Position numbers and translations under genes: made by a program. The notes under the pieces are model-generated. The model saw nothing but the letters and a program-made list of their open reading frames with translations. It had not been told where the DNA came from and made no database searches. This document shows positions 38,773 to 52,976 of a stretch of DNA of 64,000 bases, piece after piece; within the stretch, counting starts at the first letter, position 1, and each line of letters opens with the position of its first letter. Source of the stretch: a virus; IMG/VR virus record IMGVR_UViG_3300027734_000045, positions 57,062 through 121,061 of that record, one strand, 5' to 3'.

Positions 38773-39783
38773 ATGTTTATAGTAATCGAAGGCACAGACG
38801 CCTCAGGTAAGAGTTCACTTACTCAGGCTGTCGAAGAAGAAATCGCAAGCAGGCTCCAATCAAGGCTGCCTATCAACTCATTCCATAAGGGTAAACCTGA
38901 GGAAGAGACTCGTCGTTGGGTTTTGCGTGATTACGTTCTGTCAATAGAAGATAAGTCATTCGTAGACAAGGCGACACTCGCTGACCGCTGGCACTGGGGA
39001 GAAATAACCTACGCTCCGCTAAAACGTCCACACACTAACAAGGACGGATACGGCCTTCTTGGAGAGGCTGGGTGGCGCTGGGTGGAACTTTTTATGGCTT
39101 CCCGTGGTATCCAACAGTTCTGGCTTTACCAGCCTCTAAGTGTCATAGAGGGCCGTCTAAAGGCGCGTGGTGATGACTATGTCTTGCCTGATGAGCTACC
39201 TTTTATTCTAGAACAATACGGCAAGGCAGCCGAGCAAATCATTGGCCTAAAGAAACTTCAACCTGCTCCAGACAGCCTAGATGAGATTCCAAATCTCGCT
39301 AAGGAAATTGTTGACCTAGCGCTTGTCAAGGCTGAGTCCGTTAGAGCTCTAAGAGACTTTGGTCCGTACATCGGAGTTCCTAAGCCTAAGGTTCTGCTAG
39401 TCGGCGATAGGCACAATGCCACTAAGCGCTATGGGCACGAGACTAACCTTCCATTTATGCCTGTTGATGGGAACTCAGGCGAGTATCTTCTCACTGCTCT
39501 TCCGGCAGATGAGTGGAAGAACATCGGACTTATAAACATAAACGACCATCCGGAGATGTTCCGTTCTCTTTGGGAAGCGCTAGGCTGTCCGCCGATAGTA
39601 GCGCTTGGTCGCCTGGCCGAGCGAGGCCTAGTTAAACAAGGATTCATAGATTCTCAATACAACGTTGCTCCGCATCCGCAGCGGGTGCGCAGATTTGCAA
39701 ACTCTAGAAAACAAGAATACGGCGAGGCGATACTTAGATTAGCCGACACTACAGATAAGGAAGACAAATGGATACTGCGATAA
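38773..39783 (+). CDS. Deoxynucleoside monophosphate kinase fused to UDG-like domain
   Basis: This 336-residue protein has two parts. Residues 1 to about 180 are a thymidylate-kinase-type P-loop kinase: IEGTDASGKSSLTQ (Walker A), ATLADRWHWGE in the DR region and RLKARGDDYV in the lid. Residues about 205-330 resemble the uracil-DNA-glycosylase fold: VLLVGDRHN at the motif-1 position, LPFMPVDGNSGEYLL, IVALGRLAERGL, and VAPHPQRVRRF at the HP motif. The fusion is unusual. In this neighbourhood the kinase may phosphorylate a modified dNMP, as T4 gp1 does for hydroxymethyl-dCMP; the second domain could act on, or only recognise, a base. Both roles are inference. Its end overlaps the next gene by 16 bases. 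Confidence 0.75.
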   Translation: MFIVIEGTDASGKSSLTQAVEEEIASRLQSRLPINSFHKGKPEEETRRWVLRDYVLSIEDKSFVDKATLADRWHWGEITYAPLKRPHTNKDGYGLLGEAGWRWVELFMASRGIQQFWLYQPLSVIEGRLKARGDDYVLPDELPFILEQYGKAAEQIIGLKKLQPAPDSLDEIPNLAKEIVDLALVKAESVRALRDFGPYIGVPKPKVLLVGDRHNATKRYGHETNLPFMPVDGNSGEYLLTALPADEWKNIGLININDHPEMFRSLWEALGCPPIVALGRLAERGLVKQGFIDSQYNVAPHPQRVRRFANSRKQEYGEAILRLADTTDKEDKWILR

Positions 39784-40622
39784 TCAACATCAAAGACGGA
39801 GTCAATGGCTACGTTGACCTAGTGCAACATGTTTTAAAACACGGTAAGGAAGTGGCTCCACGTGGGCAGAAGACCAGAGAAATTGAAGACGCCATCATTA
39901 GAATCGATGATGTCTACAACACTTTGCCTTTAGGAATCAACCGTGGAACCGTTCCTGGAATCGGTGCTGTAGAGGCTTGTCAGCTACTTGGAGGAAGCAG
40001 CATCCCGGAGCTAGTGATAGCCGTTGGTCCACAGTTCAAAAACTTTGCCGAGGATAACGGAATCTTTCACGGTGCGTATGGACTTAGAACCAATGGGCAA
40101 TACGACGTTATTATCGAAAGACTCAAGGCAGACCCTGATACTCGCCAGGCCGTAGTCACAATCTGGAATCCAGAGTACGACCTGCAGCCAAGCAAGAGAG
40201 ACTATCCTTGCACGGTTTTACATCAATTTAGAATTCGTGACAATAAACTAAACATGAGCGTCTACATGCGTTCCAATGACGTTTGGCTTGGTGCCGCCTA
40301 CGACTTCTTCCAGTTTACCCGTGTTCAGTTGGCTATTGCTTCAGTGCTAGGAATCGAACCTGGAACTTATAACCACCACGTCGGCTCGCTTCACATCTAT
40401 GAGCAGCACTACGAGGCTGCAGACAGTCTCAAGTATAGTGATAAGATTATTGATGTGCCGTTTATAACTGGAGCAACATGGGCAGAGGTTAGCGACTCAG
40501 CAAATGACGCTTTGTTTGCCGCCATGGATGTTAAGCCACTAGATAGCATAAGCCAAGACGCACGCTGGTACGCCGAGGCAATGAAAAACGCAATCAAGCG
40601 CAACGCTGAGAAGAGTGAGTAA
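39768..40622 (+). CDS. dCMP hydroxymethylase-like (thymidylate synthase fold)
   Basis: This 284-residue enzyme has the ThyA fold: Glu69 in GAVEACQL, TRQAVVTIWNPEYDL, the nucleophile Cys148 in RDYPCTVLHQF, RSNDVWLGAAYDFFQFT and SLHIYEQHYE with the His and Tyr that bind the nucleotide sugar. The Asn of thymidylate synthase that selects dUMP (PFNI in E. coli) is replaced by Asp179 (AYDF). In the T4 enzyme the equivalent Asp marks dCMP specificity, and hydroxymethylation replaces methylation. I therefore call it a dCMP hydroxymethylase, giving 5-hydroxymethyl-dCMP from methylene-tetrahydrofolate. It overlaps the kinase gene and precedes dCMP deaminase, with glycosyltransferases downstream. A plain thymidylate synthase with altered specificity cannot be excluded. 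Confidence 0.78.
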   Translation: MDTAIINIKDGVNGYVDLVQHVLKHGKEVAPRGQKTREIEDAIIRIDDVYNTLPLGINRGTVPGIGAVEACQLLGGSSIPELVIAVGPQFKNFAEDNGIFHGAYGLRTNGQYDVIIERLKADPDTRQAVVTIWNPEYDLQPSKRDYPCTVLHQFRIRDNKLNMSVYMRSNDVWLGAAYDFFQFTRVQLAIASVLGIEPGTYNHHVGSLHIYEQHYEAADSLKYSDKIIDVPFITGATWAEVSDSANDALFAAMDVKPLDSISQDARWYAEAMKNAIKRNAEKSE

Positions 40623-40862
40623 ATGCCAGAAGACGGCGAGCAGTACATAGACCTAGGCATTAGCCACCTACGTATTGTCGCCGTTCAACTTCACGTGGTC
40701 TACAAAGAACTACGCGAGGCCGGATTCGATAAAAGTGAAAGCTTATATCTAATCTCGCAGCTGCTTGTTGTGTCTACTCCTGAAGTAGACAGTGGACCTT
40801 ATAGATACGACAACTACAACGACAATGAGAGAGACGATGACGATGATGGTGCAGGAGCCTAG
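40623..40862 (+). CDS. Small acidic-tailed protein
   Basis: This 79-residue protein starts at ATG directly after the hydroxymethylase stop. Residues 5-60 are helical (HLRIVAVQLHVVYKELREAGF, split by motif limits) with a conserved-looking ESLYLISQLL; the end is a run of Asp residues. Its 3' end overlaps the start region of the dCMP deaminase gene in another frame. The family is not recognised. Confidence 0.6.
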   Translation: MPEDGEQYIDLGISHLRIVAVQLHVVYKELREAGFDKSESLYLISQLLVVSTPEVDSGPYRYDNYNDNERDDDDDGAGA

Positions 40863-41319
40863 GCCGTCCTGGGACGAAGTTTGGATGGACGTTGCTAGAA
40901 CTATTAGCAAACGTTCAAGATGCTCTAGAGCGCACGTAGGCGCAGTAGTAGTTTCGGCTGAACAGCGAATAAGCGCGACTGGCTACAACGGCCCGGCTGC
41001 GAATCTAAAAGTACAAGGCGACTGCATAAATTGGTGCGACAGAGCTAAGGGTCTTACTCCACTTGACAATACCTATGATTCTTGTCCGTCTATTCATGCT
41101 GAGGCCAACGCTCTTTTATACGTAGACCGCTCGAGAATTGAAGGCGGAACTATCTACGTTACTGGTGCTCCGTGTATGCAGTGCGCCAAACTTATCAGCA
41201 ACTCTGGACTGCGTAGAGTCGTCTCCATTGTTAGGCAGATAGATGTGCACAGAAAGCCAGAACGCGTGATAGACTATTTACGTAGCTGCGGAATAGAAGT
41301 ATCTACCATTGAGGAGTGA
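40837..41319 (+). CDS. Deoxycytidylate (dCMP) deaminase
   Basis: Zinc-dependent deaminase converting dCMP to dUMP. The catalytic motif is SIHAEANALLY (His and Glu) and GAPCMQCAKLI (two zinc Cys), with an N-terminal RSRCSRAHVGAVVV and CINWCDRAKG that carries extra Cys residues as in allosteric or structural-zinc dCMP deaminases. Several in-frame ATGs occur at 40792, 40825, 40837, 40843 and 40846; I chose 40837 because AGAGAG lies 7 bases upstream and the domain begins soon after. The product is about 160 residues. In T4-like pathways this enzyme balances dCMP, dUMP and dTMP pools. Confidence 0.85.
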   Translation: MTMMVQEPRPSWDEVWMDVARTISKRSRCSRAHVGAVVVSAEQRISATGYNGPAANLKVQGDCINWCDRAKGLTPLDNTYDSCPSIHAEANALLYVDRSRIEGGTIYVTGAPCMQCAKLISNSGLRRVVSIVRQIDVHRKPERVIDYLRSCGIEVSTIEE

Positions 41320-41322
41320 CAA

Positions 41323-43143
41323 ATGACACGTGGATTAGAAGAAGTAAAGTTAGACCTAGTTGATAGCGTTGAAAAGGCAGGACAGTTTCTAACCTGGCTT
41401 GGAGAACGCAGGCCACACAACGCTATAGCCATTGACACTGAAACAGGAGAGCTTCCTGGTCGCCCGCGCTCAGATGCGCTTTCTCCTTGGCACGGCAGAC
41501 TTCGTTTAGTGCAGGTTGGGGATGCGATGCACGGCTGGGCGATTCCTTGGGACGAATGGGCTGGAGTCTTCTACCAAGCAATGAACAAATACGATGGTCA
41601 AATCGTGTGTCACAACATCGCCTTTGAAGCTAAGTTCTTTGAGATTCAGTCTAAGTGGAGTATGCCTTGGCAAAAGGCGCACGACACTATGATTATGGCT
41701 CAAATTATCGACCCGCTTGGCTCTGGCGCTTTGAAGAGGCTGACATCACAATACGTTGACAGCAGGGCGGCTGCTTTGCAGTCTAACTTAGATAACGCTT
41801 TGATAGACAACGGTTGGACCTGGGGAACTGTACCTACAAACTTTGAACCGTATTGGGCCTATGGCGCACTGGACACTGTGCTCACGATGAGACTGTGGGA
41901 AAAGTTCTGGGAGAAATGCGGACCTGATGGACCTTATAGCAGATCGTACGAGCTTGAGATGGCTGCAAGAAAAATAGTCACTCGCATGGAACTCAACGGA
42001 GCGCGCATCGATTTAGATTATTCGCGTAAGAAATACGAAGAACTTAACAGCTATACTGAGCAAGTGAAGGCTTGGGCAAGAGACACGTACAATGGAGTTT
42101 CTATTACCAGCAACATTCAACTAGTTAGGTTGTTTGAAAGCATGGGAGCTGAGTTCACTGAGTTTACTGCGACTGGCCAGAAATCTGCTACTAAGGACCA
42201 ACTAAGACTTCTAGTGCGAGACGGCTCCCCAGAAGTACAGAATTTAGCTCAAACAGTTTTGGCTCAACGTAAGGCAGATAAACTAGCCAACACCTACTTC
42301 CTAAACTTTATAAATGACAACATTAACGGATTCGTTCACCCGTCTGTAAAGACTCTTGGTGCGCGTACTGGTCGCATGTCTATCACTAATCCTGCACTGC
42401 AGACTCTACCTAAGGGCGATGACACTGTTCGCCGTGCATTTATTCCTAAGGACGAAGACCACGTAATCGTGACCTCTGACCTTGACCAAGTCGAGTTTCG
42501 TATGTTTGCGTCGATGTCCAAGGACCCTAACCTAATCAGCCTGTTCAACCTTGCTGACGCAACTGGTTCGGACCCGTTTACTGAGATTGGCCGTGAGATT
42601 TATGCTGACCCGTCTATGCAACGTTCAGATAAGAGACGTAATCTAATCAAAGGCGTAATCTACGGTCGTCTTTATGGAGCCGGAGTTGAGAAGCAGGCAA
42701 TCACTGCTGGTGTTGCAAAAACACAGATGCAGGCTGTGTCAGACGCCTTTGACACTAGGTTCCCAGGCATGTCCGTCTTTCAAAAGCAAATCGATGACCT
42801 TGGCATGCGCAGACTGCGAGCTGAAGGTCAAGGATACGTTCACACTTGGACTGGAAAACGTCTTCCTTGTGATGACGACCGCACCTATACCTTAGTGAAC
42901 TATCTGATTCAAGGTGGAGCTGCTGAGGTATTTAAGAACAACTTAGTAAAGTTAGACCAAGCAGATTTGACAGATTTGCTTATCGTGCCGGTGCACGATG
43001 AAATCGTACTAAACGCACCAAGAAAAGATGTCAAAGAGATTATGCAGACTGTAAAGGAGTGTATGACTACGACAGAGGGATGGGCAGTTCCGCTCACCTC
43101 GGGAATCGATGGACCACTTGAAACGTGGGGAGATAAATACTAA
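41323..43143 (+). CDS. Family A DNA polymerase (with 3'-5' exonuclease)
   Basis: This 606-residue polymerase starts at ATG behind GAGGAG, 3 bases after the deaminase stop. The exonuclease domain has AIDTETGEL (Exo I), VCHNIAFEAKFF (Exo II) and YGALDTVLT (Exo III). The polymerase domain has LGARTGRMSITNPALQTLP, motif A TSDLDQVEFRMF, motif B RRNLIKGVIYGRLYG and motif C VPVHDEIV. Tyr447 occupies the O-helix position that is Phe in E. coli Pol I, as in T7 polymerase. There is no 5'-3' exonuclease domain. It is the likely phage replicase, acting with the primase-helicase at 55321. Confidence 0.95.
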   Translation: MTRGLEEVKLDLVDSVEKAGQFLTWLGERRPHNAIAIDTETGELPGRPRSDALSPWHGRLRLVQVGDAMHGWAIPWDEWAGVFYQAMNKYDGQIVCHNIAFEAKFFEIQSKWSMPWQKAHDTMIMAQIIDPLGSGALKRLTSQYVDSRAAALQSNLDNALIDNGWTWGTVPTNFEPYWAYGALDTVLTMRLWEKFWEKCGPDGPYSRSYELEMAARKIVTRMELNGARIDLDYSRKKYEELNSYTEQVKAWARDTYNGVSITSNIQLVRLFESMGAEFTEFTATGQKSATKDQLRLLVRDGSPEVQNLAQTVLAQRKADKLANTYFLNFINDNINGFVHPSVKTLGARTGRMSITNPALQTLPKGDDTVRRAFIPKDEDHVIVTSDLDQVEFRMFASMSKDPNLISLFNLADATGSDPFTEIGREIYADPSMQRSDKRRNLIKGVIYGRLYGAGVEKQAITAGVAKTQMQAVSDAFDTRFPGMSVFQKQIDDLGMRRLRAEGQGYVHTWTGKRLPCDDDRTYTLVNYLIQGGAAEVFKNNLVKLDQADLTDLLIVPVHDEIVLNAPRKDVKEIMQTVKECMTTTEGWAVPLTSGIDGPLETWGDKY

Positions 43144-43610
43144 TGACAAAAATGATTTTAGCAGTAGACCCTGGCAAGGCGACAGGAATGGCGCTATTTA
43201 CCTTTGAGGTTGGCAGTGAGCCAGAACTAGTCTGGTCTATAGAGGTTCAACAGCACGAGTACGCTGAGCCTATTCGAAACACGCTGCTTCTTGCAGACTA
43301 CTCGGGTGTCTCTCTTGAGATAGTCTGCGAAAGATTTACGATAAACGCGCAGACAGTAAAGAACACTCAGGCGCCATACTCACTTGAGCAGATTGGAATT
43401 CTAAAGCAATGCATGATGGACAAGTTGATTGACCCGGACTCAATTGTGTTCCAGTCTCCAGCTGACGCTAAGAGAATGTTTACCAACGAGGCACTCAAGA
43501 AACTTGAGTATTGGCACAAGGGTGGAGAGGGTCACGCTCTAGATGCGATTAGACACGGGCTTCTTCGGCTAGTAAAAACTGGTTGGAAGCCTCTTAGACT
43601 GCTCCAATAA
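43143..43610 (+). CDS. RuvC-like Holliday junction resolvase
   Basis: This 155-residue protein starts at the TAATG overlap with the polymerase stop. It has the RNase H-fold acidic pattern of RuvC: AVDPGKATGMAL (first Asp), EIVCERF (Glu) and GEGHALDAIRHGL (last acidic pair). Length fits the single-domain phage resolvases. It would cut branched recombination or replication intermediates before packaging. Confidence 0.82.
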   Translation: MTKMILAVDPGKATGMALFTFEVGSEPELVWSIEVQQHEYAEPIRNTLLLADYSGVSLEIVCERFTINAQTVKNTQAPYSLEQIGILKQCMMDKLIDPDSIVFQSPADAKRMFTNEALKKLEYWHKGGEGHALDAIRHGLLRLVKTGWKPLRLLQ

Positions 43611-43627
43611 AAACAAGAAATAATACC

Positions 43628-43700
43628 ACATACTAATAGAAAACACAGACAAACTGTAAAAATCGTGTTAGTATGTTTTTAGTGACGAAAGGAATACACA
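43628..43700 (+). promoter_or_regulatory. Promoter-leader with inverted repeat before the helicase gene
   Basis: TGTTAGTAT (43666-43674) is an extended -10 element with CAGACA at 43646-43651 as a possible -35 (17-base spacing). It lies 32 bases before the GTG at 43701; the leader contains GACGAAAGGA. Overlapping it, ACATACTAA (43628-43636) pairs exactly with TTAGTATGT (43668-43676) followed by TTTT, so the site may also be an AT-rich terminator or an operator. Confidence 0.6.
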
Positions 43701-45509
43701 GTGCCAGTATACGCTGAAATTGACCCAAATGGTAAGCACGTAGTGCTAACCGCTGACTGGAGATTCAAGGAGCTCTGCAAGAGCGTTCCAGGCGCAAGCT
43801 ACAATGGCAAGGAACAAGTATGGAGAGTTCCTGTTTCTTGGGGAACATGCTTGGCCTTGCGTTCAACATTTAGAGATGAACTAATAATCGGCGAAAATCT
43901 TTCCACCTGGGCAAACAACGAATTAGCTACACGAATCAATCCTGCCAATGAGCTAAGAGACCTAGAGGTGCTGCCTGAAGGAGAAGGCGACCAAGACCTT
44001 TTCCCGCATCAACGTGCAGGAGTTAAGTTTTTGGCCACAGCTCGCAGAGCTCTTCTTGCGGATGAGCCAGGTCTAGGAAAAACCGCTCAGGCTATCCGAG
44101 CTATCAAGGAGCTACAGGATAGAGGTGAACAGGTGTTTCCTGCGCTTGTCGTTTGCCCGAACACGCTAAAGAAAAACTGGAAGCGCGAGTTTGAGAGATG
44201 GTGGCCTGGAGTCAACGTAGAAGTAATCAAGGGTTCGGCAACACAAAGGCGAAATCAGTTTGAAGCAGAGAACGTTGATGTCTATGTTATCAACTGGGAG
44301 TCTCTGCGCACTCATTCTCGCTTATCGGGATACGGTTCAATTGCACTTGCTCGTTGCATCGAGTGCGGAGGCCACGATGAAAAGGTCACGGCCAATCGTT
44401 GTGAGGTTCACCTACGAGAATTAAACAAAATCGACTTCAAGGCTGTGGTGGCCGATGAGATTCACAGGTCAAAGGAGCCTAAGTCTAAACAGACTAGAGC
44501 TCTGTGGGCCGCAACGGGAAACGCAGACATTAGATTTGCACTTACTGGAACACCTATAGCTAATAACGTGCTAGACCTATGGGCGATTCTTCACTGGATA
44601 GCTCCAGAGGAGTGGCCAAGTAAGAGTCGCTGGATTGACCGCATGATTGACATAATGCTAAACGCGTTTGGTGGAATGATGGTTCTTGGTGTAAAGCCTC
44701 TAATGGAGCCAGAGTTCCATGCGTCTATAAATCCTAGAATGCGTCGAATGCTAAAGGCTCGCGTGCTTCCATGGCTGCCTGAAATGATGTTCGAGAGACG
44801 TGATGTCGAGATGTCTACTAAGCAGAAGAAAGCTTACGAGCAGATGCGCGACAACATGATTGCAGAACTTGAAAACGGAGAGGCTATCACGGCTCCTAGC
44901 GCGCTGACTCAAACTACGCGTCTATTACAGTTCGCTAGTTCATACGCAGAGAACACATTTGACGAGGTCTCAGGTGAAACTAGAACTGTGTTGACAGCTC
45001 CGTCTGCCAAGGTTGATGCTCTAATGGAAGACATTAGCAATGGAGACTTTGGAGATGACTCTGTCGCAGTGTGCGCGGTGTCTAGACAGCTAATTGAAAT
45101 TCTTAGCGCTGAGCTAACAAGCGCTGGAATAGCCCATGGACTAATTACAGGTGCTCAAAATGAAGATGAACGTCAGAAGTCAATTGACGACTTCCAGTCC
45201 GGTAAAACTAAATGGATTCTGTTTACAGCTCAGGCTGGAGGTGTCGGTGTGACCTTGACTGCAGCTCGCAGACTAGTTATGCTCCAGAGACCTTGGTCTC
45301 TAGTCGACCACAAGCAGGCTCTAGATCGAATCCATAGAATTGGTTCCGAAATACACGATTCAGTAGTTATAATGGACTATATAACTGAAAACACGATTGA
45401 GGAACGAGTACTTCAAGTCTTAGAAACTAAGGCTGATAACTTCGAGCAAATCGTGAAGGATAAAGACAAATTACTAGCGATGCTCAAGGACGACAAGGAA
45501 AGCAAATAA
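43701..45509 (+). CDS. SNF2-family DNA helicase/translocase
   Basis: This 602-residue protein starts at GTG behind GAAAGGA. Motif I ADEPGLGKTAQA is near residue 120, motif II VADEIHRSKEP is a DEIH box, motif III FALTGTPIAN, and the C-terminal lobe has LFTAQAGGVGVTLTAA and MLQRPWSLVDHKQALDRIHRIG. The N-terminal 100 residues (KHVVLTADWRFKELCKSVPG, KEQVWRVPVSW) are like the HARP-type region of annealing helicases such as SMARCAL1. Probable role: fork remodelling or strand annealing during phage recombination. It is coupled to the next gene by TAATG. Confidence 0.9.
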   Translation: MPVYAEIDPNGKHVVLTADWRFKELCKSVPGASYNGKEQVWRVPVSWGTCLALRSTFRDELIIGENLSTWANNELATRINPANELRDLEVLPEGEGDQDLFPHQRAGVKFLATARRALLADEPGLGKTAQAIRAIKELQDRGEQVFPALVVCPNTLKKNWKREFERWWPGVNVEVIKGSATQRRNQFEAENVDVYVINWESLRTHSRLSGYGSIALARCIECGGHDEKVTANRCEVHLRELNKIDFKAVVADEIHRSKEPKSKQTRALWAATGNADIRFALTGTPIANNVLDLWAILHWIAPEEWPSKSRWIDRMIDIMLNAFGGMMVLGVKPLMEPEFHASINPRMRRMLKARVLPWLPEMMFERRDVEMSTKQKKAYEQMRDNMIAELENGEAITAPSALTQTTRLLQFASSYAENTFDEVSGETRTVLTAPSAKVDALMEDISNGDFGDDSVAVCAVSRQLIEILSAELTSAGIAHGLITGAQNEDERQKSIDDFQSGKTKWILFTAQAGGVGVTLTAARRLVMLQRPWSLVDHKQALDRIHRIGSEIHDSVVIMDYITENTIEERVLQVLETKADNFEQIVKDKDKLLAMLKDDKESK

Positions 45510-46444
45510 TGACAACAGTAGAACCAATCAAAATCTCTAACTCTGAGATTCAAACATTCAAGGATTGCCGTCGCAAGTGGTGGTTAGCTTATTACCGTAG
45601 ACTGCAACCAAAAAACAAAAACAAGACGGGCGCACTTGCACTTGGTTCTCGTATTCACGAAGCACTTGACATGTACTATTCAACTGGTCAGGATTTGCTC
45701 GAGGCTCACGCAGAACTTCTAAACAAAGACCGTGAACTGTATAAAGCGGAATGGCGCGACCTAAGTGAGCTTGAGTCTGAAGGCGAACTTGGCCGCATCA
45801 TGCTTGAAGGCTACCTGCAGTGGGTAGACGAAGAAGGCATCGACGCTGAGCTAGAAATGATTTCCACTGAGGAGATTATCTCAATGCCTTTGATGGAAGG
45901 CCGCGTAGAGCTACAAGGTAAACTAGACATGCGTGTTCGTCGCAAGGGCGACGGAGTGCGTATGTTTAGAGACTTTAAAACCGTTGGCGGTTCTTTCTCT
46001 GACTTTGCAAACCAGGCTCAAATGAACGAACAGATTCTTACCTACATGCTTCTTGAGTCAGCTCAGAACAAAGAAGGTGAACGTTCCGAAGGTGGAATCT
46101 TTACCATGCTAAAAAAGGTAAAGAGAACCGCGAACGCAAAGCCTCCGTTCTTTGAACAGATTGAAGTTCGCCACAACGTGTTTACTATGCGTTCGTTTTG
46201 GCAGAGACTGCACGGCACGCTTACCGACATGCTTCGAGTGCGCGATGCTTTAGATGAAGGTGCAAACCCGCAGTTTGTAGCTTACCCGACTCCATCTAGA
46301 GACTGCAAGTGGAAGTGCCAGTTCTATTCAGTGTGTCCGCTAATCGACGACGGCTCTGCGGCAGAGCAGGCAATCAGCGAGCTATTTGAAGAATCTAATC
46401 CGTACGCATACTATGGTCAGGAAGACCCAAAGGGTGATGCGTAA
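45509..46444 (+). CDS. PD-(D/E)XK nuclease, RecB/Cas4-like, with Fe-S cysteines
   Basis: This 311-residue protein has the RecB-type pattern: ISNSEIQTFKDCRRKWWLAYY at the N-terminus, LGSRIHEALDMYY, then the active-site strands LQGKLDMRV and MFRDFKTVGG (Asp, then Asp/Lys). Cys20 and three Cys near the end (DCKWKCQFYSVCPL) form the four-cysteine set that holds a 4Fe-4S cluster in Cas4/AddB-like nucleases. It sits between the SNF2 helicase and the RecA-like ATPase, so it is probably an end-processing exonuclease of the recombination module. No cas genes are nearby. Confidence 0.85.
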   Translation: MTTVEPIKISNSEIQTFKDCRRKWWLAYYRRLQPKNKNKTGALALGSRIHEALDMYYSTGQDLLEAHAELLNKDRELYKAEWRDLSELESEGELGRIMLEGYLQWVDEEGIDAELEMISTEEIISMPLMEGRVELQGKLDMRVRRKGDGVRMFRDFKTVGGSFSDFANQAQMNEQILTYMLLESAQNKEGERSEGGIFTMLKKVKRTANAKPPFFEQIEVRHNVFTMRSFWQRLHGTLTDMLRVRDALDEGANPQFVAYPTPSRDCKWKCQFYSVCPLIDDGSAAEQAISELFEESNPYAYYGQEDPKGDA

Positions 46445-46508
46445 TGAAGACTTTATTGCAATTCCGCAATGAGAAAACAACAACAACAAATGAAGGAAGG
46501 ATGAGAGT

Positions 46509-47264
46509 ATGTCAGACGTTCAACGTTCACTAACCATAATGGTTTATGGCGAGTCTAAGGTTGGTAAGTCAACCTTTGCTGTTACAGCACCATACCCACG
46601 TCTCATGCTTGACGTAGAAGGCGGACACCGTTTCTTGCCTATCAACGTAAAGTACTGGGACCCACTGCGCGAGGAGCCACCAGTTGCCGACGGCACTTGG
46701 GACACCTGCGTAGTACCAGTTCGTGATTACGATACTGTCCTAAAGGCTTATCAATGGCTACAGCTTGGTAAGCACCAGTTCAAATCACTTATCATCGACT
46801 CAGTATCTGAGTTGCAGGTTAAGTGTATGGACAACATCGCTGGAGTAAATCAGATGCAGATGCAGCAGTGGGGCGAACTACTTCGTCACATGGGTTCTCT
46901 GCTTCGCGATTTGCGTGACCTAACGATGCACCCTACCGCTCCGCTAGAAGCAGTAGTTCTAACCGCGATGGCAAGACCTAGCCAGGATGGACGCACGCGT
47001 CCTTACCTGCAAGGACAACTTGCAATCCAGGCTCCGTATTTTTACGATGTCCTTGGAGCAATCAACGTTGAAACCATCCAAAATCCTGACCCAACTCAAC
47101 CTCCATACCGCGCTCGTCGCATGTATGTTGAAAGAACTGACAAATACGAAGCCGGCGAACGCGTCCAGGGCCGTCTTGGTCAAATCGTTGAGCAGCAGGA
47201 CCTCGGAATCGAGCGTATGCTCGACATGATTTTCGGTCCAAAGACCGAGAGCAAGTCGGTCTAA
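46509..47264 (+). CDS. Sak4-type RecA-like recombination ATPase
   Basis: This 251-residue protein starts at ATG after AAGGAAGG. It has an N-terminal Walker A (YGESKVGKSTFA, residues 13-24), Walker B-like strand SLIIDSVSEL near 98-107, and VVLTAMARPS with a polar sensor. These features and the size fit the single-domain Sak4 family, which anneals or exchanges strands with a phage SSB. The ssDNA-binding gene follows directly, the usual partner. Confidence 0.82.
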   Translation: MSDVQRSLTIMVYGESKVGKSTFAVTAPYPRLMLDVEGGHRFLPINVKYWDPLREEPPVADGTWDTCVVPVRDYDTVLKAYQWLQLGKHQFKSLIIDSVSELQVKCMDNIAGVNQMQMQQWGELLRHMGSLLRDLRDLTMHPTAPLEAVVLTAMARPSQDGRTRPYLQGQLAIQAPYFYDVLGAINVETIQNPDPTQPPYRARRMYVERTDKYEAGERVQGRLGQIVEQQDLGIERMLDMIFGPKTESKSV

Positions 47265-47310
47265 CCAATCCCGGTTAGTCGATAACTACAGAAAGATAAG
47301 GAATCTCATT

Positions 47311-47862
47311 ATGAGTTCATTAAACTGGGGAGACCTAGTAAAGGACGCCGGAGAATCTTCCGGCGGTCAATACGAGCCGTTGCCAGACGGTGACTACGAC
47401 CTGAAGGTAATCGAGGCTTCGGCCGCGGTTTCACAGTCAGGTAAAACCATGTTCAAAATCACTACTGAGGTTCAGGCAGGTGCGTTCGCTAAGCGTCGTA
47501 TCTGGGACAACTTGGTAGTATCTCCAGACAGCCCAGCTGCTCTAGGCATCTTCTTTTCGAAGATGGCCGCGCTTGGTCTGCCTCGCGAGTACTTCATGGG
47601 AAACCCAAGCAACGCGACTATTGAAGCCGCTATTCTAAATCGTGCATTCCGCGCGCAAATTGGCTCACGTGTGTGGCAAGGCGCTAAGAAGAACGAGATT
47701 AAGAAGTACTACGTTGCTCCTGCGGCTGGCGTTGCTGCCGCTGTAGCTCCTGCTGCTCCAGCACCCGCTCCAGCACCCGCTGCTGCTCCAGCTCCAGCAC
47801 CCGCTCCAGCGCCGGCCGCAGCTCCTGTAGCTGCTGCTGCTCCACCTGCATCGCCGTTCTAA
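47311..47862 (+). CDS. Single-stranded DNA-binding protein (DUF669-like) with Ala-Pro tail
   Basis: This 183-residue protein starts at ATG behind AAGGA. Residues 1 to about 125 form an OB-type domain (PLPDGDYDLKVIEASAAVS, MFKITTEVQAG, RRIWDNLVVSPD, RAFRAQIGSRVW) as in phage SSBs adjacent to Sak4. Residues about 132-181 are an Ala-Pro repeat (PAPAPAPAAAP) that should be an extended tether. The chain ends in Ser-Pro-Phe: the terminal Pro-Phe pair is the same as the tip of bacterial SSB, but the usual acidic residues are absent. Confidence 0.8.
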   Translation: MSSLNWGDLVKDAGESSGGQYEPLPDGDYDLKVIEASAAVSQSGKTMFKITTEVQAGAFAKRRIWDNLVVSPDSPAALGIFFSKMAALGLPREYFMGNPSNATIEAAILNRAFRAQIGSRVWQGAKKNEIKKYYVAPAAGVAAAVAPAAPAPAPAPAAAPAPAPAPAPAAAPVAAAAPPASPF

Positions 47863-47869
47863 ACGGATA

Positions 47870-47911
47870 GTTGTTGTCCTGGGTTCTCTGATAGAGTGCC
47901 CAGGACGCAAC
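47870..47911 (+). terminator. Long intercistronic hairpin after the SSB gene
   Basis: GTCCTGGG (47876-47883) pairs with CCCAGGAC (47899-47906); inside, CTCT pairs with AGAG around a GAT loop, and outside GTTG (47870-47873) pairs with CAAC (47908-47911). No T-run follows, so it may be an attenuator, a processing site or an mRNA 3' stabiliser for the highly expressed SSB. Confidence 0.5.
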
Positions 47912-47930
47912 TCTAACTTCAAGGACTACA

Positions 47931-49145
47931 ATGAAAATTCTTATGACAGGCTATACAGCCTTGCAGATTGGTAATCCAGTCCGCAGTATTCAAAAAATCA
48001 ACGTTCCAGCATCTATCGTGAAGGCGCTGCGTGACGCCGGACACGAGGTCGATTGGCGGAAGGTCACCGTTGGCGAAGACCTATCTATGTACGATGTTGC
48101 CTGGATAAACTTGGCGCCAATGAACTCGCTAAATGGACGCCATGGAGCGATGGGTACTCTGTACACTTTAGCTTCTGGTCTACCTTGCGTAGGCTTCTTC
48201 GATGACTGGCAGTTCAACGCTGTGTTCAACGGTGCACGCGCGCTAAAGCGTGACACGACTAAGATGCTTTATAAGCACCTGTTTGGTCCAGCAGACGCTC
48301 GTGGCACTGAGGCAGCTACGCATTTTAGCCGCAAGTCAGTAGACGAGGCTATAGCTCGTATTGAAGCTGTAGACCCGGCTCGAGCAAAGAAAATCTCCTT
48401 CGAGAGATACTACATGTTAGACAAAGACGCAGACGTCGAGCCTTACGAAAAAATGCTCATTGAGTCAGCTAGTCTTCTTCTAAATGATCGTTGGGCTGAA
48501 GGAATGGTTCCAGTGTGTCCAATGTATGGTTTTGGTGATCGTTCACTTGTGCGCAAGCGTATGCCAAAGGACATGGGCGCAATCGAGGCGCTAGACCCAA
48601 GCCCGACTATTTATGAGCTTCTAAATGAGGTTGCTCCGGCTGCACCTGAAACCAAAAAACGCGGCTGGGTACTTGGCGCGCTTATGCCACACGACACCTG
48701 GTTAGATAAGAAAACTATTTCCTGGCCTGTAGAAATCGTTGGTAGTCGCAAACTTGTTCGTGAACGCGGCGGTCAGCGCTTTGACACAGAGAAAGAAGTG
48801 CTAGAGTTCTATAACCAGCACTGGGGAATTATGTCTCCGCCTTACATGCACTCTGGCTCAGGCTGGTGGCGTAGTCGTTTTATGTACGCAGCCCGTGTTG
48901 GTTCTATCCTGTTGACTGAGAAGGGTGAAGCCAATGGGCTTGGCTCAGCTTACAACGTCACTCTCGCTCAGGTTGAGAAGATGTCAGACGAGGAGCTAAA
49001 GGCTACAGCAGACGCACAGGCCCAAGCGCTTCGCGCATTTATGCCAACCTATCAAAGCTTCGCTGAACACTGTGTAAGAATCGTAGAACGAGCTGTGAAA
49101 GAAGACAAGGGCCTAAAGCTAAATCCTGACGGCACTCGAGCATGA
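47931..49145 (+). CDS. GT-B-like glycosyltransferase candidate 1 (DNA base modification?)
   Basis: This 404-residue protein starts at ATG after AAGGA. It opens with a Rossmann-type strand (MKILMTGYTALQIGNP), a helix SIVKALRDAGHEVDW and a YDVAWINLAPMNSL strand, the pattern of the N-terminal half of GT-B enzymes. The C-terminal part has GWVLGALMPHD, SWPVEIVGSRKLV, and WWRSRFMYAARVGSILLTEKGEA, which is like the sugar-nucleotide-binding half. By eye the strand order and spacing recall T4 DNA beta-glucosyltransferase. The next gene is a shorter paralogue overlapping by 4 bases. With a dCMP hydroxymethylase in the same region, the natural inference is glycosylation of hydroxymethylcytosine in DNA. 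A protein or cell-wall glycosyltransferase is the alternative. Confidence 0.62.
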   Translation: MKILMTGYTALQIGNPVRSIQKINVPASIVKALRDAGHEVDWRKVTVGEDLSMYDVAWINLAPMNSLNGRHGAMGTLYTLASGLPCVGFFDDWQFNAVFNGARALKRDTTKMLYKHLFGPADARGTEAATHFSRKSVDEAIARIEAVDPARAKKISFERYYMLDKDADVEPYEKMLIESASLLLNDRWAEGMVPVCPMYGFGDRSLVRKRMPKDMGAIEALDPSPTIYELLNEVAPAAPETKKRGWVLGALMPHDTWLDKKTISWPVEIVGSRKLVRERGGQRFDTEKEVLEFYNQHWGIMSPPYMHSGSGWWRSRFMYAARVGSILLTEKGEANGLGSAYNVTLAQVEKMSDEELKATADAQAQALRAFMPTYQSFAEHCVRIVERAVKEDKGLKLNPDGTRA

Positions 49146-50164
49146 GCAAGATTTTGGTGACTGGAATGTCAGCACCACAGGCGTCTCAAAAGGCTAACTC
49201 TCGAGGTTTAAGTTTTACTAAAGTCGTAGTTGACGCGTTGTCTGAGCTTGGCCACGAGGTTCACTGGTCTCTGCCCTCGCTAGACTGGACTGAGGAAGAC
49301 TTGTCTTTATTTGACTCGGTTGTAGTTGGAGTTTCTCCGCTAACGAGTCTAAGTGCTAACTACTCATACGGTGGTCTTCATGCTATTGGAGAACTAAAGG
49401 ACAGTGACAAACTTACCCTACTAATCGATGCTCCACAGGTTGCTCAAATAGGTGCGGGTCTACGGGCAGTTAGAAGTAATCCTGATAGCCTCACTAAGGC
49501 ATTCTATTCGAATAGGCCAGGGTATCAGCGGGTGACGGATTCGAGTGTCTCTAAAAGGCTTCTAGCCACCGCCGAGTGGTTGCTGGACGAGCAGTGGCCA
49601 ACAACTATCTATCCCGAGTTGCCGTGGAAAGATTCCGACTCGACAGAGCAACTTCTTCCTAGTGGAGCTAAAGGTGCGTTAGTTGGAATCAACCGAGACA
49701 TCGCTCTAATCGAAAAAGACCTACTTACTGCAAGAAGAGAGAAGTGGGTAGTCGACAGCTACACGACTCCATGGGCTAAGTCTACAGTAAAAACTATCTC
49801 ACTCCCGACTGCTCCTATGAAGTGGCATAAGGGATGTGACGACGTCATGGTCCAAACTCAAATTGCTCGGTCAATTGGAGCACTAATAACTCCTTACAGA
49901 CAAGACGGCACTTGGTGGAGCTACAGATACGCTCAAGCGCTGTCTGCCTACACACCAATAGCTACAGGCTGGCAAGAGAGCGGGAAACTGCACGACTCCT
50001 GGAGTTTCTTAGCGGCAACTATTGAAAGTGCAAGTCAGAATATACGTGATGGTATTTCTATAGAACAGCGTGAGTCCTACGTGGCGGCCATTCCAAGTAT
50101 AATCGAAACCAATAAGAAACTTCAAGACACACTAAAAATTACAAAAAGAAAGGTAATACTATGA
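49142..50164 (+). CDS. GT-B-like glycosyltransferase candidate 2 (paralogue)
   Basis: This 340-residue protein begins at an ATGA overlap with the previous stop. It shares its layout: SKILVTGMSAPQASQ at the start, VVVDALSELGHEVHW, FDSVVVGVSPLTSLSANYSYGG (compare the INLAPMNSLNGRHGAMG of the neighbour), KLTLLIDAPQ, and a C-terminal WWSYRYAQALSAYTPIATGW with the same double-Trp/Arg signature. Two tandem copies suggest sequential sugar addition, as in T-even phages making mono- and diglucosylated bases, or enzymes for different linkages. This is inference from gene order; the paralogy itself is seen in the sequence. Confidence 0.6.
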   Translation: MSKILVTGMSAPQASQKANSRGLSFTKVVVDALSELGHEVHWSLPSLDWTEEDLSLFDSVVVGVSPLTSLSANYSYGGLHAIGELKDSDKLTLLIDAPQVAQIGAGLRAVRSNPDSLTKAFYSNRPGYQRVTDSSVSKRLLATAEWLLDEQWPTTIYPELPWKDSDSTEQLLPSGAKGALVGINRDIALIEKDLLTARREKWVVDSYTTPWAKSTVKTISLPTAPMKWHKGCDDVMVQTQIARSIGALITPYRQDGTWWSYRYAQALSAYTPIATGWQESGKLHDSWSFLAATIESASQNIRDGISIEQRESYVAAIPSIIETNKKLQDTLKITKRKVIL

Positions 50165-50649
50165 GCGATAACGTGCTTTTTAAAAAGTGGCTCGAGAAAA
50201 CAAGAGAGCTTCAAAAAGAAGTTTACAAAATAGACTACGCCTCAATGGAAGGCGATAGCCCAGAAAACATCAATAACCTAGTTGAGTACATTCGCTGGAA
50301 CATGCTTGCCATTGACGATGAGCTAGCAGAAATGCGCCAGGCAATCTCGTGGAAGCCGTGGCAGCATGACGAGCCATACGCAGACCGCGAGGAGCTAATC
50401 AAGGAAGCCGTAGACGTTCTGCACTTCGTGGCTAACATAATCGTAGCTGCTGGAGGAACTGACGAGGTACTAGATGAGTTCTACGTAGCTAAGATGGAAA
50501 AGAACCGTGCAAGACAGACCGCTGGATACAAGGTCAAGGCCGAGGGAATCAAGTGCGTAATGTGCTCGCGCGCGTTAGATGATGTGGCACCTAGCGAAAA
50601 TCATCCAAATGTATGCGTAAAGTGTGATGAAGAAGATAGGAACAAGTAA
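50161..50649 (+). CDS. dUTPase/dCTPase-type (MazG-like) pyrophosphatase with zinc ribbon
   Basis: This 162-residue protein overlaps the previous gene by ATGA. Residues 1 to about 120 follow the all-alpha NTP pyrophosphatase pattern: NMLAIDDELAEMRQAISWKPW (acidic EL.E set and WKPW), ELIKEAVDVLHFVANI (E..D set) and FYVAKMEKNRARQTAGY. The C-terminus adds a four-Cys ribbon (CVMCSRAL...CVKCDEE). The fold is shared by dimeric dUTPases and the T4 gp56 dCTPase/dUTPase, which strips dCTP so that only modified C enters DNA. That role fits this cluster but the substrate cannot be read from sequence. Confidence 0.75.
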   Translation: MSDNVLFKKWLEKTRELQKEVYKIDYASMEGDSPENINNLVEYIRWNMLAIDDELAEMRQAISWKPWQHDEPYADREELIKEAVDVLHFVANIIVAAGGTDEVLDEFYVAKMEKNRARQTAGYKVKAEGIKCVMCSRALDDVAPSENHPNVCVKCDEEDRNK

Positions 50650-51068
50650 TGGGAAGCGTAGATTTTGAATGGGTAAGACAACAGTTTATTGAGTCTAAAA
50701 CTAAAATCGTAGTTGGTCTAGCCGTAATGAAGCTACTTGAAACTTGGCAAGAGATTGACCTAACACCAGACCAGGCAAAAGAAGTCTTTGAAATCCTAGG
50801 TTCTTTAGCGCAAGGTCACGCCATAGCAGCGAGCAAACCTGATGAGGTCTGGGTTGGCGCTAGACGTGGAGACCTAAAGGTTGGAGACGAAGTTCGTGTC
50901 AAGCGTGACGCCTACTCTGGAGAGCTAGGTACTCTTCACAATGGGCGCCGAGGAAAAATTATAGCAATTAGAAGTGGTGACATCATCATAAGAACTCTTG
51001 ACAACAAGAGTCCATCATTAGATGGAGTACACTACGCTCCTGACCAGTTAGAAAAGAGAATCGTCTAA
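50649..51068 (+). CDS. Unknown protein with C-terminal KOW/SH3-like domain
   Basis: This 139-residue protein overlaps the previous stop (TAATG). Residues 1-70 are helical (IVVGLAVMKLLETWQEI, TPDQAKEVFEILGSLAQGH); residues 75-139 are a beta barrel-like segment (LKVGDEVRVKRDAYSGELG, GRRGKIIAIRSGDIIIRTL). The KOW-like part suggests nucleic acid or protein binding. The family is not recognised. Confidence 0.65.
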   Translation: MGSVDFEWVRQQFIESKTKIVVGLAVMKLLETWQEIDLTPDQAKEVFEILGSLAQGHAIAASKPDEVWVGARRGDLKVGDEVRVKRDAYSGELGTLHNGRRGKIIAIRSGDIIIRTLDNKSPSLDGVHYAPDQLEKRIV

Positions 51069-51376
51069 TGACAGAAGAATCTAAAAATGAACTTCCTAGA
51101 ATTGAGGCTTTGCGTGAGGCTGCAAGAATTATCTCTGGTGATAGAGACGTGCAGTATGGAGCTCCAGAAGATAACCTAGGACGTATAGCTAAGCTGTGGT
51201 CGGTTTTATTTGAAAAAGAGATTACGGCTCAAGACGTGGCGATGGCGATGGTCGCACTAAAGATGGCTCGCTATGTGAACAAGGGAGACTTCCAGCCCGA
51301 CACCTGGATTGACATCGCTGGATACGCTGGAATTGGCTATGAAGTTGGCAAACCTAAGAACGAGAGCAATCTATAA
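51068..51376 (+). CDS. DUF6378-like small protein
   Basis: This 102-residue protein starts at the TAATG overlap. The pattern EAARIISGDRDVQYGAPEDN, AKLWSVLF, ITAQDVAMAMVALKMARYV and DTWIDIAGYAGIG is one I know as a widespread phage family (DUF6378), helical and often beside nucleotide-metabolism genes. The biochemical function is not established to my knowledge; a MazG-like role has been suggested by context only. Confidence 0.75.
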   Translation: MTEESKNELPRIEALREAARIISGDRDVQYGAPEDNLGRIAKLWSVLFEKEITAQDVAMAMVALKMARYVNKGDFQPDTWIDIAGYAGIGYEVGKPKNESNL

Positions 51377-52466: not shown

Positions 52467-52976
52467 TTGACAAAAAATAACGACATGTCTTGGCAAAAAG
52501 ACGGAGTCTGCGCTAGACCAGAAAACAAGGGTAAAGAGACGTTCTTCTTCTCAAGTAAGACGGACGAAAAATACCAGGCAAAGAACATGTGCTTCTCCTG
52601 CCCTGTAAGACGAGACTGTGTCAAGTTCGCTCTCGAGACAAAACAAATCTGGGGTATCTGGGGTGGAAAAGACGAAGGAGAAATCCGCAGGACTCTTTCT
52701 GTGTCCTGGAACGGTCAGGAATCAAGAAGACAGAGACCGCCTCAATGTCCTTATTGCAACGCAAGAACTAGTAAGTTGCAGACTATAGTGGCTGACGTTC
52801 CCGGCGGTGGGCGATGGACCACGATGAAACTTGTAAATTGCACTGAGTGTGACTTTACTTGGAGAAGTAGAACTAGTGCTAACGCTGTAGAGACTTATCA
52901 CATTCAAAGAAGCGAAAAACTCGCAAAGAGCGAAGAAGAAAAGAAAGCTAAGAAGCCTAAAGCTTTACCGGAATAA
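52467..52976 (+). CDS. WhiB-family regulator with added zinc ribbon
   Basis: This 169-residue protein uses TTG at 52467, which is supported by AGGTG six to ten bases upstream; the internal ATG at 52485 has none. Residues 1-75 are a WhiB domain: Cys15, Cys42, Cys45 and Cys51 to hold a 4Fe-4S cluster, followed by the IWGIWGGKDEGE turn. Residues about 92-140 add a CPYC...NCTEC zinc ribbon, and the end is Lys/Glu-rich. WhiB proteins occur in actinobacteria and their phages and bind the sigma factor SigA to change transcription, so this gene identifies the host group. The extra ribbon is unusual. Its 3' end overlaps the convergent gene by 20 bases. Confidence 0.88.
   Translation: MTKNNDMSWQKDGVCARPENKGKETFFFSSKTDEKYQAKNMCFSCPVRRDCVKFALETKQIWGIWGGKDEGEIRRTLSVSWNGQESRRQRPPQCPYCNARTSKLQTIVADVPGGGRWTTMKLVNCTECDFTWRSRTSANAVETYHIQRSEKLAKSEEEKKAKKPKALPE

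Follow-up and report, generated by a model that had tools for sequence, protein, structure and literature searches.

A freshwater-type virus of actinobacteria very probably replaces the cytosine of its DNA with sugar-bearing hydroxymethylcytosine, as phage T4 does. The genes concerned lie in a 64,000-nucleotide window that comprises bases 57062-121061 of the 121,061-base IMG/VR record IMGVR_UViG_3300027734_000045. Their sequences and modelled structures make a T4-like cytosine hypermodification pathway with unrecognised glycosyltransferases the likely reading. Cytosine hydroxymethylation and glycosylation are well described in T4-like phages of Gram-negative hosts. We found no report of cytosine hypermodification in actinobacterial phages in the literature, in agreement with an earlier note on this DNA, which knew of no well-described system of this form in the host group. 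In window coordinates, the genes are as follows.

38773..39783, + strand: kinase fused to a UDG-fold domain (AF2 model, PDB matches, weak PF02223 and PF03167 in relatives)
39768..40622, + strand: predicted dCMP hydroxymethylase of the thymidylate synthase (TS) family (PF00303, PHROG 5131, active-site residues)
40792..41319, + strand: dCMP deaminase (PF00383, E 9e-21; PHROG 174, E 2e-46)
47931..49145, + strand: GT1, predicted DNA glycosyltransferase of GT-B fold (AF2 model, PDB matches)
49142..50164, + strand: GT2, probable second glycosyltransferase (homology to GT1 by hhalign)
50161..50649, + strand: dimeric-dUTPase-family (dUTPase_2) dCTP/dUTP pyrophosphatase (PF08761, hhalign to T4 gp56)
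51068..51376, + strand: DUF6378 protein (PF19905, E 9e-28)

The first six genes are all intact and all on the + strand. Between the two gene groups are genes for PolI, RuvC, a helicase, a PD-(D/E)XK nuclease, a RecA-like ATPase and a DUF669 protein. Because these replication and recombination genes separate the groups, the pathway genes are dispersed yet co-directional with replication genes, and the six-gene block described in the earlier note is present in full.

Active-site residues of the TS-family protein (PF00303, E 2.9e-27; PHROG 5131, E 3.8e-47) point to a dCMP hydroxymethylase rather than a thymidylate synthase, with the residue roles taken from published work (PMC6400193, PMC5175136, PMC8670742). 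Its best sequence match in the PDB is the CMP 5-hydroxymethylase MilA (5b6d, 5jnh; E 2.5e-22; PMC5175136), which likewise has Asp for cytosine. At T4 position 179, E. coli TS and the SPO1 enzyme have Asn, whereas the window enzyme and all relatives aligned, including those of Gordonia phages, have Asp (D179); the dUMP-specific Asn is thus lacking. D145, three residues ahead of the catalytic Cys148 in the window enzyme, is Leu in E. coli TS; T4 requires it for activating the water from which the hydroxymethyl group derives (PMC6400193). The D145/D179 pair is also found in two Gordonia enzymes. The window hydroxymethylase also has E69, R126 and S169. Of these, Ser169 and Arg126 occupy the positions of Ala176 and Lys133, by which MilA differs, and represent the deoxyribose-preferring state (PMC5175136). 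The active-site residues of dCMP hydroxymethylase are found in 14/14 aligned enzymes of the phage group. The window enzyme departs from the signature at the position of T4 Ser94 (Ser or Thr, two before Tyr96), which is Gly102, with Tyr104 kept; the SPO1 dUMP hydroxymethylase has Ala there.

These residues bear on two other readings of the enzyme. The genes might serve ordinary thymidylate supply (dCMP to dUMP to dTMP to dTDP, and dUTP to dUMP), with a raised dTTP pool and unrelated glycosyltransferases, in line with the annotation of homologues as thymidylate synthase, thymidylate kinase or dUTPase and with the thymidylate-kinase-like nature of the kinase. However, the replacement of the dUMP-specific Asn by Asp179 and of a hydrophobic Leu by Asp145, the best PDB match to a cytosine hydroxymethylase, the occurrence of GT1 only with the gene set and the shift of site avoidance from C-containing to C-free palindromes (see below) make this very improbable. 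Searches of the 121,061-base record for a second thymidylate synthase found neither another PF00303 gene nor ThyX. Alternatively, the enzyme could be a dCMP C5-methylase that yields 5-methylcytosine throughout, as in phage Xp12, with the glycosyltransferases acting elsewhere. An Asp at position 177/179 also makes TS act on dCMP and yield 5-methyl-dCMP (PMC8670742), C-modified DNA would resist many enzymes (Xp12, PMC7653180), and Ser94 is not conserved. Against this, the water-activating D145 of T4 (PMC6400193) is kept in every aligned relative, and the linked GT1, with its BGT-like fold, would have no obvious target on 5-methylcytosine; we consider a methylase about as improbable as thymidylate supply.

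The dUTPase_2-type protein (PF08761, E 3.7e-10) is, by profile comparison, a detectable relative of T4 gp56 (hhalign, 97.6 %, E 4.6e-12). The Zn ribbon described for it in the earlier note holds for the window phage, in which the C-terminal CxxC...CxxC is complete, but the second CxxC is incomplete in many relatives. The deaminase has the zinc motifs HAE and PCxxC; its GTG start is uncertain, and its relatives have shorter N-terminal ends. The dNMP kinase (Walker A, GTDASGKS) is thymidylate-kinase/YorR-like rather than gp1-like and carries a fused domain that the earlier note had missed. Its AF2 model (pLDDT 94) matches YorR (3kb2, TMt 0.80) and thymidylate kinases over residues about 1-195, and its C-terminal part, a UDG-superfamily-fold domain of residues about 200-336, matches TmUDG (1l9g, TMt 0.49). 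PF02223 is weakly detected in 25/37 relatives and PF03167 in 12/37. The fused kinase is predicted to phosphorylate hm-dCMP. DUF6378 was considered as a dUTPase relative and rejected, since the two lack profile similarity.

A search of IMG/VR returned 114 related loci. Among fully spanned loci, the kinase, hydroxymethylase, deaminase, dUTPase and DUF6378 genes are together in 17 and all absent in 5. These core genes occupy two sites about 9 kb apart and are gained or lost as a set, and their co-occurrence is far beyond chance. GT1 is present in 13/17 loci with the hydroxymethylase and 0/5 without, and DUF6378 in 17/17 and 0/5, whereas GT2 is present in 22/22 spanned loci, including those without the pathway. 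The co-occurrence check named beforehand in the earlier note thus succeeds for the kinase, hydroxymethylase, deaminase and dUTPase, with GT1 found only alongside them, and fails for GT2. Independent gain or loss events are few, because the pathway-minus loci belong mainly to one clade, plus L250 and L128. Pathway-minus genomes carry no TS-family gene elsewhere. A TET/JBP oxygenase, as another source of hydroxymethylcytosine (hmC) in hydroxymethylase-minus relatives, was not found in 18 records.

GT1 and GT2 have no Pfam match. The GT1 model (pLDDT 80, pTM 0.83) has, among its best PDB matches, T4 beta-glucosyltransferase (BGT) structures 1qkj (E 3e-5), 1nzd and 1bgt with E 3e-5 to 8e-4 and TMt 0.53-0.55, and it also matches T4 AGT (1xv5) with E 7e-4; non-DNA GT-B enzymes, SenB, PimA and Gtf3 among the matches, score similarly. 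The GT-B fold is common to many glycosyltransferases that do not act on DNA. GT1 is, by its model, a GT-B enzyme with a BGT-like fold and a predicted DNA glycosyltransferase. Comparison of GT1 with the BGT sequence profile gave no relation (hhalign, 0.4 %), and comparison of the kinase with T4 gp1 gave 0.5 % over the P-loop only; no sequence homology to BGT or gp1 was detected, and GT1 is assigned to a family of its own with a predicted BGT-like function. The GT1 and GT2 profiles align with each other (hhalign, 99.7 %, E 3e-26); GT2 is a homologue of GT1 and a probable second glycosyltransferase. Its substrate is less certain, because it is kept in relatives without the hydroxymethylase. A C5-cytosine methyltransferase was considered as the reason for GT2 in pathway-minus relatives, but is absent there. 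Counting against the proposed pathway, such a methyltransferase occurs in most relatives, but not in the window genome.

Perhaps 5-hydroxymethylcytosine replaces cytosine, but GT1 and GT2 glycosylate cell wall, teichoic acid or capsid protein rather than DNA. The fold matches to SenB, PimA and Gtf3, the persistence of GT2 in pathway-minus phages and a distant GT1 homologue in the Kyanoviridae phage C48C1, which lacks PF00303, agree with such targets, and a UDP-galactopyranose mutase in the related phage DSL-LC01 was read by its authors as a cell-wall gene (PMC10611076). Conversely, GT1 was seen only in loci with the hydroxymethylase, GT1 homologues accompany a "pyrimidine hmase" in MW202657 and occur in the T4-like phage phiAS4, and the slot lies within the replication block and adjoins the dUTPase. 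We therefore regard non-DNA targets as unlikely, though less so than the two readings above. A search for GT1 homologues in bacterial genomes, aimed at a cellular host, found none.

The slot before GT2, which GT1 occupies in the window phage, varies among relatives: it holds GT1, GT1 with UDP-galactopyranose mutase, or another likely glycosyltransferase with sugar-activation enzymes. In several relatives, a nucleotidyltransferase, a HAD phosphatase and an APH-type phosphotransferase are beside the likely glycosyltransferase. Among 19 records searched whole, DSL-LC01 alone has UDP-galactopyranose mutase; L112 and L159 also carry it in this slot. No sugar-nucleotide genes were seen in the window genome (ORFs by eye, few scanned), and the sugar would therefore come from the host. 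We give even chances to a modular cytosine glycosylation in actinobacterial phages, in which a fixed hmC core is combined with exchangeable cassettes in one slot, so that close relatives bear different sugars, including galactofuranose in the DSL-LC01 clade, where the mutase gene lies between those of GT1 and GT2, and, in the L075/L081/L085/L153 group, a sugar activated by the phage itself. We know of no DNA base that is galactofuranosyl-hmC, which would be new if true.

Palindrome avoidance fits cytosine that is shielded from host cutting enzymes. A mean-score test over single loci proved noisy, and the figures given here come from explicit counts that include non-palindromic words as controls. 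In pathway genomes, 19/224 C-free palindromes are avoided versus 18/1264 C-containing ones (p 1.7e-7), whereas in pathway-minus genomes the counts are 0/68 and 14/229 (difference p 6.7e-4); these p-values are exploratory, as the thresholds were chosen after a first look, and host differences between the groups are uncontrolled, so that restriction-enzyme repertoires may differ. Non-palindromic A/T words served as the control, with 0/664 avoided. DSL-LC01 has 0 ATAT (126 expected) and 0 TTAA (123 expected). C-free palindromes are thus avoided with the pathway and only C-containing ones without it, as protected cytosine predicts. Against this, the C-containing GATC occurs 63 times in the window genome versus 376 expected, and is avoided in three other pathway genomes too. 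In support, glucosyl-hmC DNA of T4 resists 214/227 enzymes, but its TTAA and AATT sites remain cleavable (PMC7653180).

In the proposed pathway, the gp56-like pyrophosphatase would convert dCTP and dUTP to dCMP and dUMP, and the deaminase would divert part of the dCMP to dUMP, toward dTTP. Hm-dCMP, the predicted product of the hydroxymethylase, would be phosphorylated by the phage kinase to the diphosphate and by a host kinase to the triphosphate, which the phage Pol I would incorporate. After replication, GT1 and probably GT2 would attach a sugar, drawn from a nucleotide-sugar, at the hydroxymethyl group, and cytosine would be largely or wholly replaced by glycosylated 5-hydroxymethylcytosine, blocking restriction enzymes at C-containing sites. 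Sequence and structure show the families, the active-site residues, the linkage, the GT-B fold and the site avoidance; which reactions the enzymes catalyse and in what order, which sugar is used and how much cytosine is replaced are inferred.

The functional set is that of T4 (gp42, gp56, Cd, gp1 and alpha-/beta-GT): a hydroxymethylase with the same key residues, a gp56-related pyrophosphatase, a deaminase, a kinase and two glycosyltransferases, of which GT1 has a GT-B fold in common with BGT and matches it in structure. The T4 likeness claimed earlier is therefore sound for the core enzymology, but does not extend to the kinase and glycosyltransferases as sequence relatives of gp1 and BGT. 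The homology of GT1 and GT2 to each other and the exchangeable sugar cassette in an actinobacterial virus also set the system apart from T4. The pathways for arabinosyl-hmC in phage RB69 and for pentose-cytosine in Shewanella phage Thanatos (PMC6024577, PMC12838424) combine hydroxymethylase, deaminase and dCTPase with a phage-made activated sugar, like several relatives here, but no sugar-activation genes were recognised in the window phage, and glycosyltransferase family and hosts differ. The 5-carbamoyloxymethylcytosine phages found by MetaGPA (PMC8670742) have a TS homologue with Asp177 and a transferase acting on hmC, which is a carbamoyltransferase in place of GT-B glycosyltransferases. 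DSL-LC01 (OQ999401) has the same gene set and order, and in the Gordonia phages GodonK, Forza and GMA2 the set is largely the same and the layout partly conserved, although their enzymes, like that of DSL-LC01, are annotated as thymidylate synthase; we found no papers reporting a cytosine-modification pathway in these four phages.

If the proposed pathway is correct, GT1 and GT2 represent an unrecognised DNA-glycosyltransferase family without a Pfam entry, and the avoidance contrast is a sequence-only readout of a protected base that is usable for uncultured viruses. Protected DNA would then be carried by many actinophages of fresh water and soil as well as by some cultured Gordonia phages, which would affect sequencing and library preparation, resistance to restriction and CRISPR, and the hmC-directed defences to be expected in their hosts. 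The exchangeable cassette would be a source of new base chemistries.

An earlier note had read window positions 38773 to 50649 as a T4-like cytosine hypermodification set in an actinobacteriophage. All of the genes it named were found, intact and on the plus strand, in this window (bases 57062-121061 of the 121,061-base IMG/VR virus record). The label 'actinobacteriophage' is reasonable because a WhiB-family gene lies in the window (52467-52976; identified by eye and by its match to an annotated WhiB gene of DSL-LC01) and because the phage is closely related to Actinomycetia phage DSL-LC01 and to Gordonia phages.

Genes of the block (window positions, strand, description)
38773-39783, +, kinase; YorR/thymidylate kinase-like model, uracil-DNA glycosylase (UDG)-fold C-terminal third
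39768-40622, +, TS-family enzyme, predicted dCMP hydroxymethylase from its residues and its best solved relative, MilA
40792-41319, +, dCMP deaminase; both zinc motifs present
47931-49145, +, GT1, glycosyltransferase candidate; GT-B fold model
49142-50164, +, GT2, glycosyltransferase candidate; homologous to GT1
50161-50649, +, dUTPase_2-type pyrophosphatase; detectable relative of T4 gp56 dCTPase
51068-51376, DUF6378; member of the set through co-occurrence

Genes for PolI, RuvC, a helicase, a PD-(D/E)XK nuclease, a RecA-like ATPase and a DUF669 protein lie, in that order, between the deaminase and GT1. Another T4-like gene, encoding a DenV-type pyrimidine dimer DNA glycosylase (PF03013; 51444-51983), adjoins the cluster and is missing from part of the clade that lacks the pathway. 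Elsewhere in the window phage genome is an N6/N4 DNA methyltransferase gene (L002:13505-14830, record 13505-14830).

IMG/VR scans yielded two sets of 80 loci, one surrounding the hydroxymethylase and the other the RecA-like gene, and gene order is kept in nearly all that reach far enough. Among the 22 loci spanning the whole block, the kinase, TS-family, deaminase, dUTPase and DUF6378 genes are all present in 17 and all absent in 5. These genes occupy two places separated by ~9 kb, between which the replication genes are retained. GT1 occurs in 13 of the 17 loci with the pathway versus 0 of the 5 without, whereas GT2 is found in 22/22 and is thus not linked to the pathway. No TS-family gene was found anywhere in pathway-minus genomes, including those of 126, 135 and 137 kb, nor TET/JBP in those of 126 and 135 kb. 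The Fisher p value of 4e-5 for linkage overstates independence, because the minus loci are mainly one clade, sister of the window's own, together with L128 and with L250, which was found later; there may have been only two or three events. Six loci (L106, L111, L150, L163, L245 and L250) keep a single GT2 gene without GT1 or the five co-occurring genes. A C5-cytosine methyltransferase (PF00145, CPPC motif intact) lies downstream of DUF6378 in most hydroxymethylase-bearing relatives (for example, L005:22375-23619, L131:15102-16361 and L164:15139-16404), and is absent from the window genome, G006 (L095) and the minus relatives searched.

The best solved relative of the TS-family enzyme is the CMP 5-hydroxymethylase MilA (E 2.5e-22). 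When the window enzyme is aligned with T4 gp42, SPO1 gp29 and E. coli TS, its D179 falls on T4 D179. Cytosine is selected through this residue (PMC8670742, PMC6400193), which is Asn in TS and SPO1. D145, three residues ahead of C148, is Leu in TS, and in T4 activates the water that yields the hydroxymethyl group (PMC6400193). S169 and R126 replace Ala and Lys of MilA, a deoxyribose-preferring state (PMC5175136). Gly stands at the position of T4 Ser94, and one proposed hydroxymethylase signature is therefore absent. The window phage genome has no second PF00303 or ThyX gene.

The dUTPase_2 protein matches T4 gp56 dCTPase (hhalign 97.6 %, E 4.6e-12). For the kinase, the structure model (pLDDT 94) resembles YorR (TMt 0.80) as well as thymidylate kinases. 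A UDG-superfamily-fold domain is fused to this phage dNMP kinase (window 39370-39780) in the DSL-LC01-like clade, for which 37 homologues were aligned; the last third of the model resembles uracil-DNA glycosylase (1l9g, TMt 0.49), and 12 of the 37 show a weak match to UDG family PF03167. Annotated Gordonia kinases are ~260 residues long and apparently lack the domain. The fusion is notable in that some host defences are known to be members of the UDG superfamily that remove hmC from DNA (Brig3, PMC13160076).

No credible Pfam match was obtained for any of 32 GT1 or 36 GT2 homologues. The GT1 model (pLDDT 80, pTM 0.83) has a GT-B fold. Among the PDB structures that it matches are T4 beta-glucosyltransferase (1qkj, E 3e-5; 1nzd and 1bgt, TMt 0.54-0.55) and alpha-glucosyltransferase (1xv5, E 7e-4), and also further GT-B enzymes, SenB and PimA for instance. 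Matches to viral proteins include glycosyl transferases from Bacillus phage SP-15, in which thymine is hypermodified (PMC5977210). An hhalign comparison of their profiles shows GT1 and GT2 to be homologous (99.7 %, E 3e-26). GT1 homologues are also present in T4-like Aeromonas phages, including phiAS4, where TS-family matches at three places are interpreted here as a split td gene plus a homologue of gp42. Another occurs in MW202657, a record with a 'pyrimidine hmase', and a distant one in Kyanoviridae phage C48C1, which lacks PF00303.

Between the DUF669 gene and GT2 is a slot of variable content. It holds GT1 alone in the window and most relatives, a GT1-like gene with a UDP-galactopyranose mutase in DSL-LC01, L112 and L159, and nothing in L092 and L095. 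In L151 it encodes a 412-417-residue protein, an APH-type phosphotransferase, a HAD phosphatase and a nucleotidyltransferase, a set found whole or in part in L075, L081, L085, L134, L136 and L153; the 412-417-residue protein stands by itself in L086 and L140. This protein has no Pfam match, and is read here as a putative glycosyltransferase from its position and N-terminal sequence. This arrangement recalls RB69 and Thanatos, phages that make their own activated sugars (PMC6024577, PMC12838424). The DSL-LC01 mutase is a host cell-wall gene according to its authors (PMC10611076), but its location between two glycosyltransferase genes suggests that it serves a DNA sugar rather than the cell wall.

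Where cytosine is shielded, restriction enzymes remain active at sites that lack C. T4 glucosyl-hmC DNA resists 214 of 227 enzymes, and is cut by MseI (TTAA), MluCI (AATT) and NdeI (CATATG) (PMC7653180). For 41 diverged units that have the pathway and 7 that lack it, we compared the numbers of 4- and 6-base palindromes with those expected from a Markov model. With the pathway, strong avoidance affects C-free palindromes in 19/224 tests versus 18/1264 for C-containing ones (p 1.7e-7); without it, the counts are 0/68 and 14/229 (difference between plus and minus units, p 6.7e-4). Non-palindromic A/T words are avoided in 0/664 tests in plus units.

Palindromes in individual genomes (found/expected)
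DSL-LC01 (L294-L300, 129 kb), with pathway: ATAT 0/126, TTAA 0/123
L010, with pathway: TTAA 0/34
G008, with pathway: ATTAAT 0/25
G009, with pathway: ATTAAT 0/19, AATATT 0/15
Window phage genome, with pathway: ATAT 66/215, TTAA 192/412
G004, without pathway: AGCT 0/171, GATC 0/102, GCGC 0/44, CCGG 2/36

GATC, which contains C, is an exception, being avoided in the window genome (G000, the window plus L002-L004; 63 found, 376 expected), G006 (10/364), L010 (0/40) and L092, and some C-containing palindrome is avoided in 14 of the 41 plus units. The overall pattern fits shielded cytosine, and is supportive rather than proof, because thresholds were fixed after a first look at the data, units of the same clade are non-independent and hosts may differ between the two groups.

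A T4-like pathway is the best explanation of the gene set, given the families, residues, fold, linkage and site pattern observed, from which we infer the activities, the sugar and the pathway's completeness. Searches of an open-access library turned up no account of such cytosine modification in phages of actinobacteria. The hydroxymethylase is a relative of gp42 and the pyrophosphatase of gp56, whereas the kinase and glycosyltransferases are, by the tests run, not members of the gp1 and BGT sequence families. The set would work as in T4: dCTP would be removed, dCMP would then be hydroxymethylated and phosphorylated, and the product would be incorporated and lastly glycosylated by GT1 and probably GT2.
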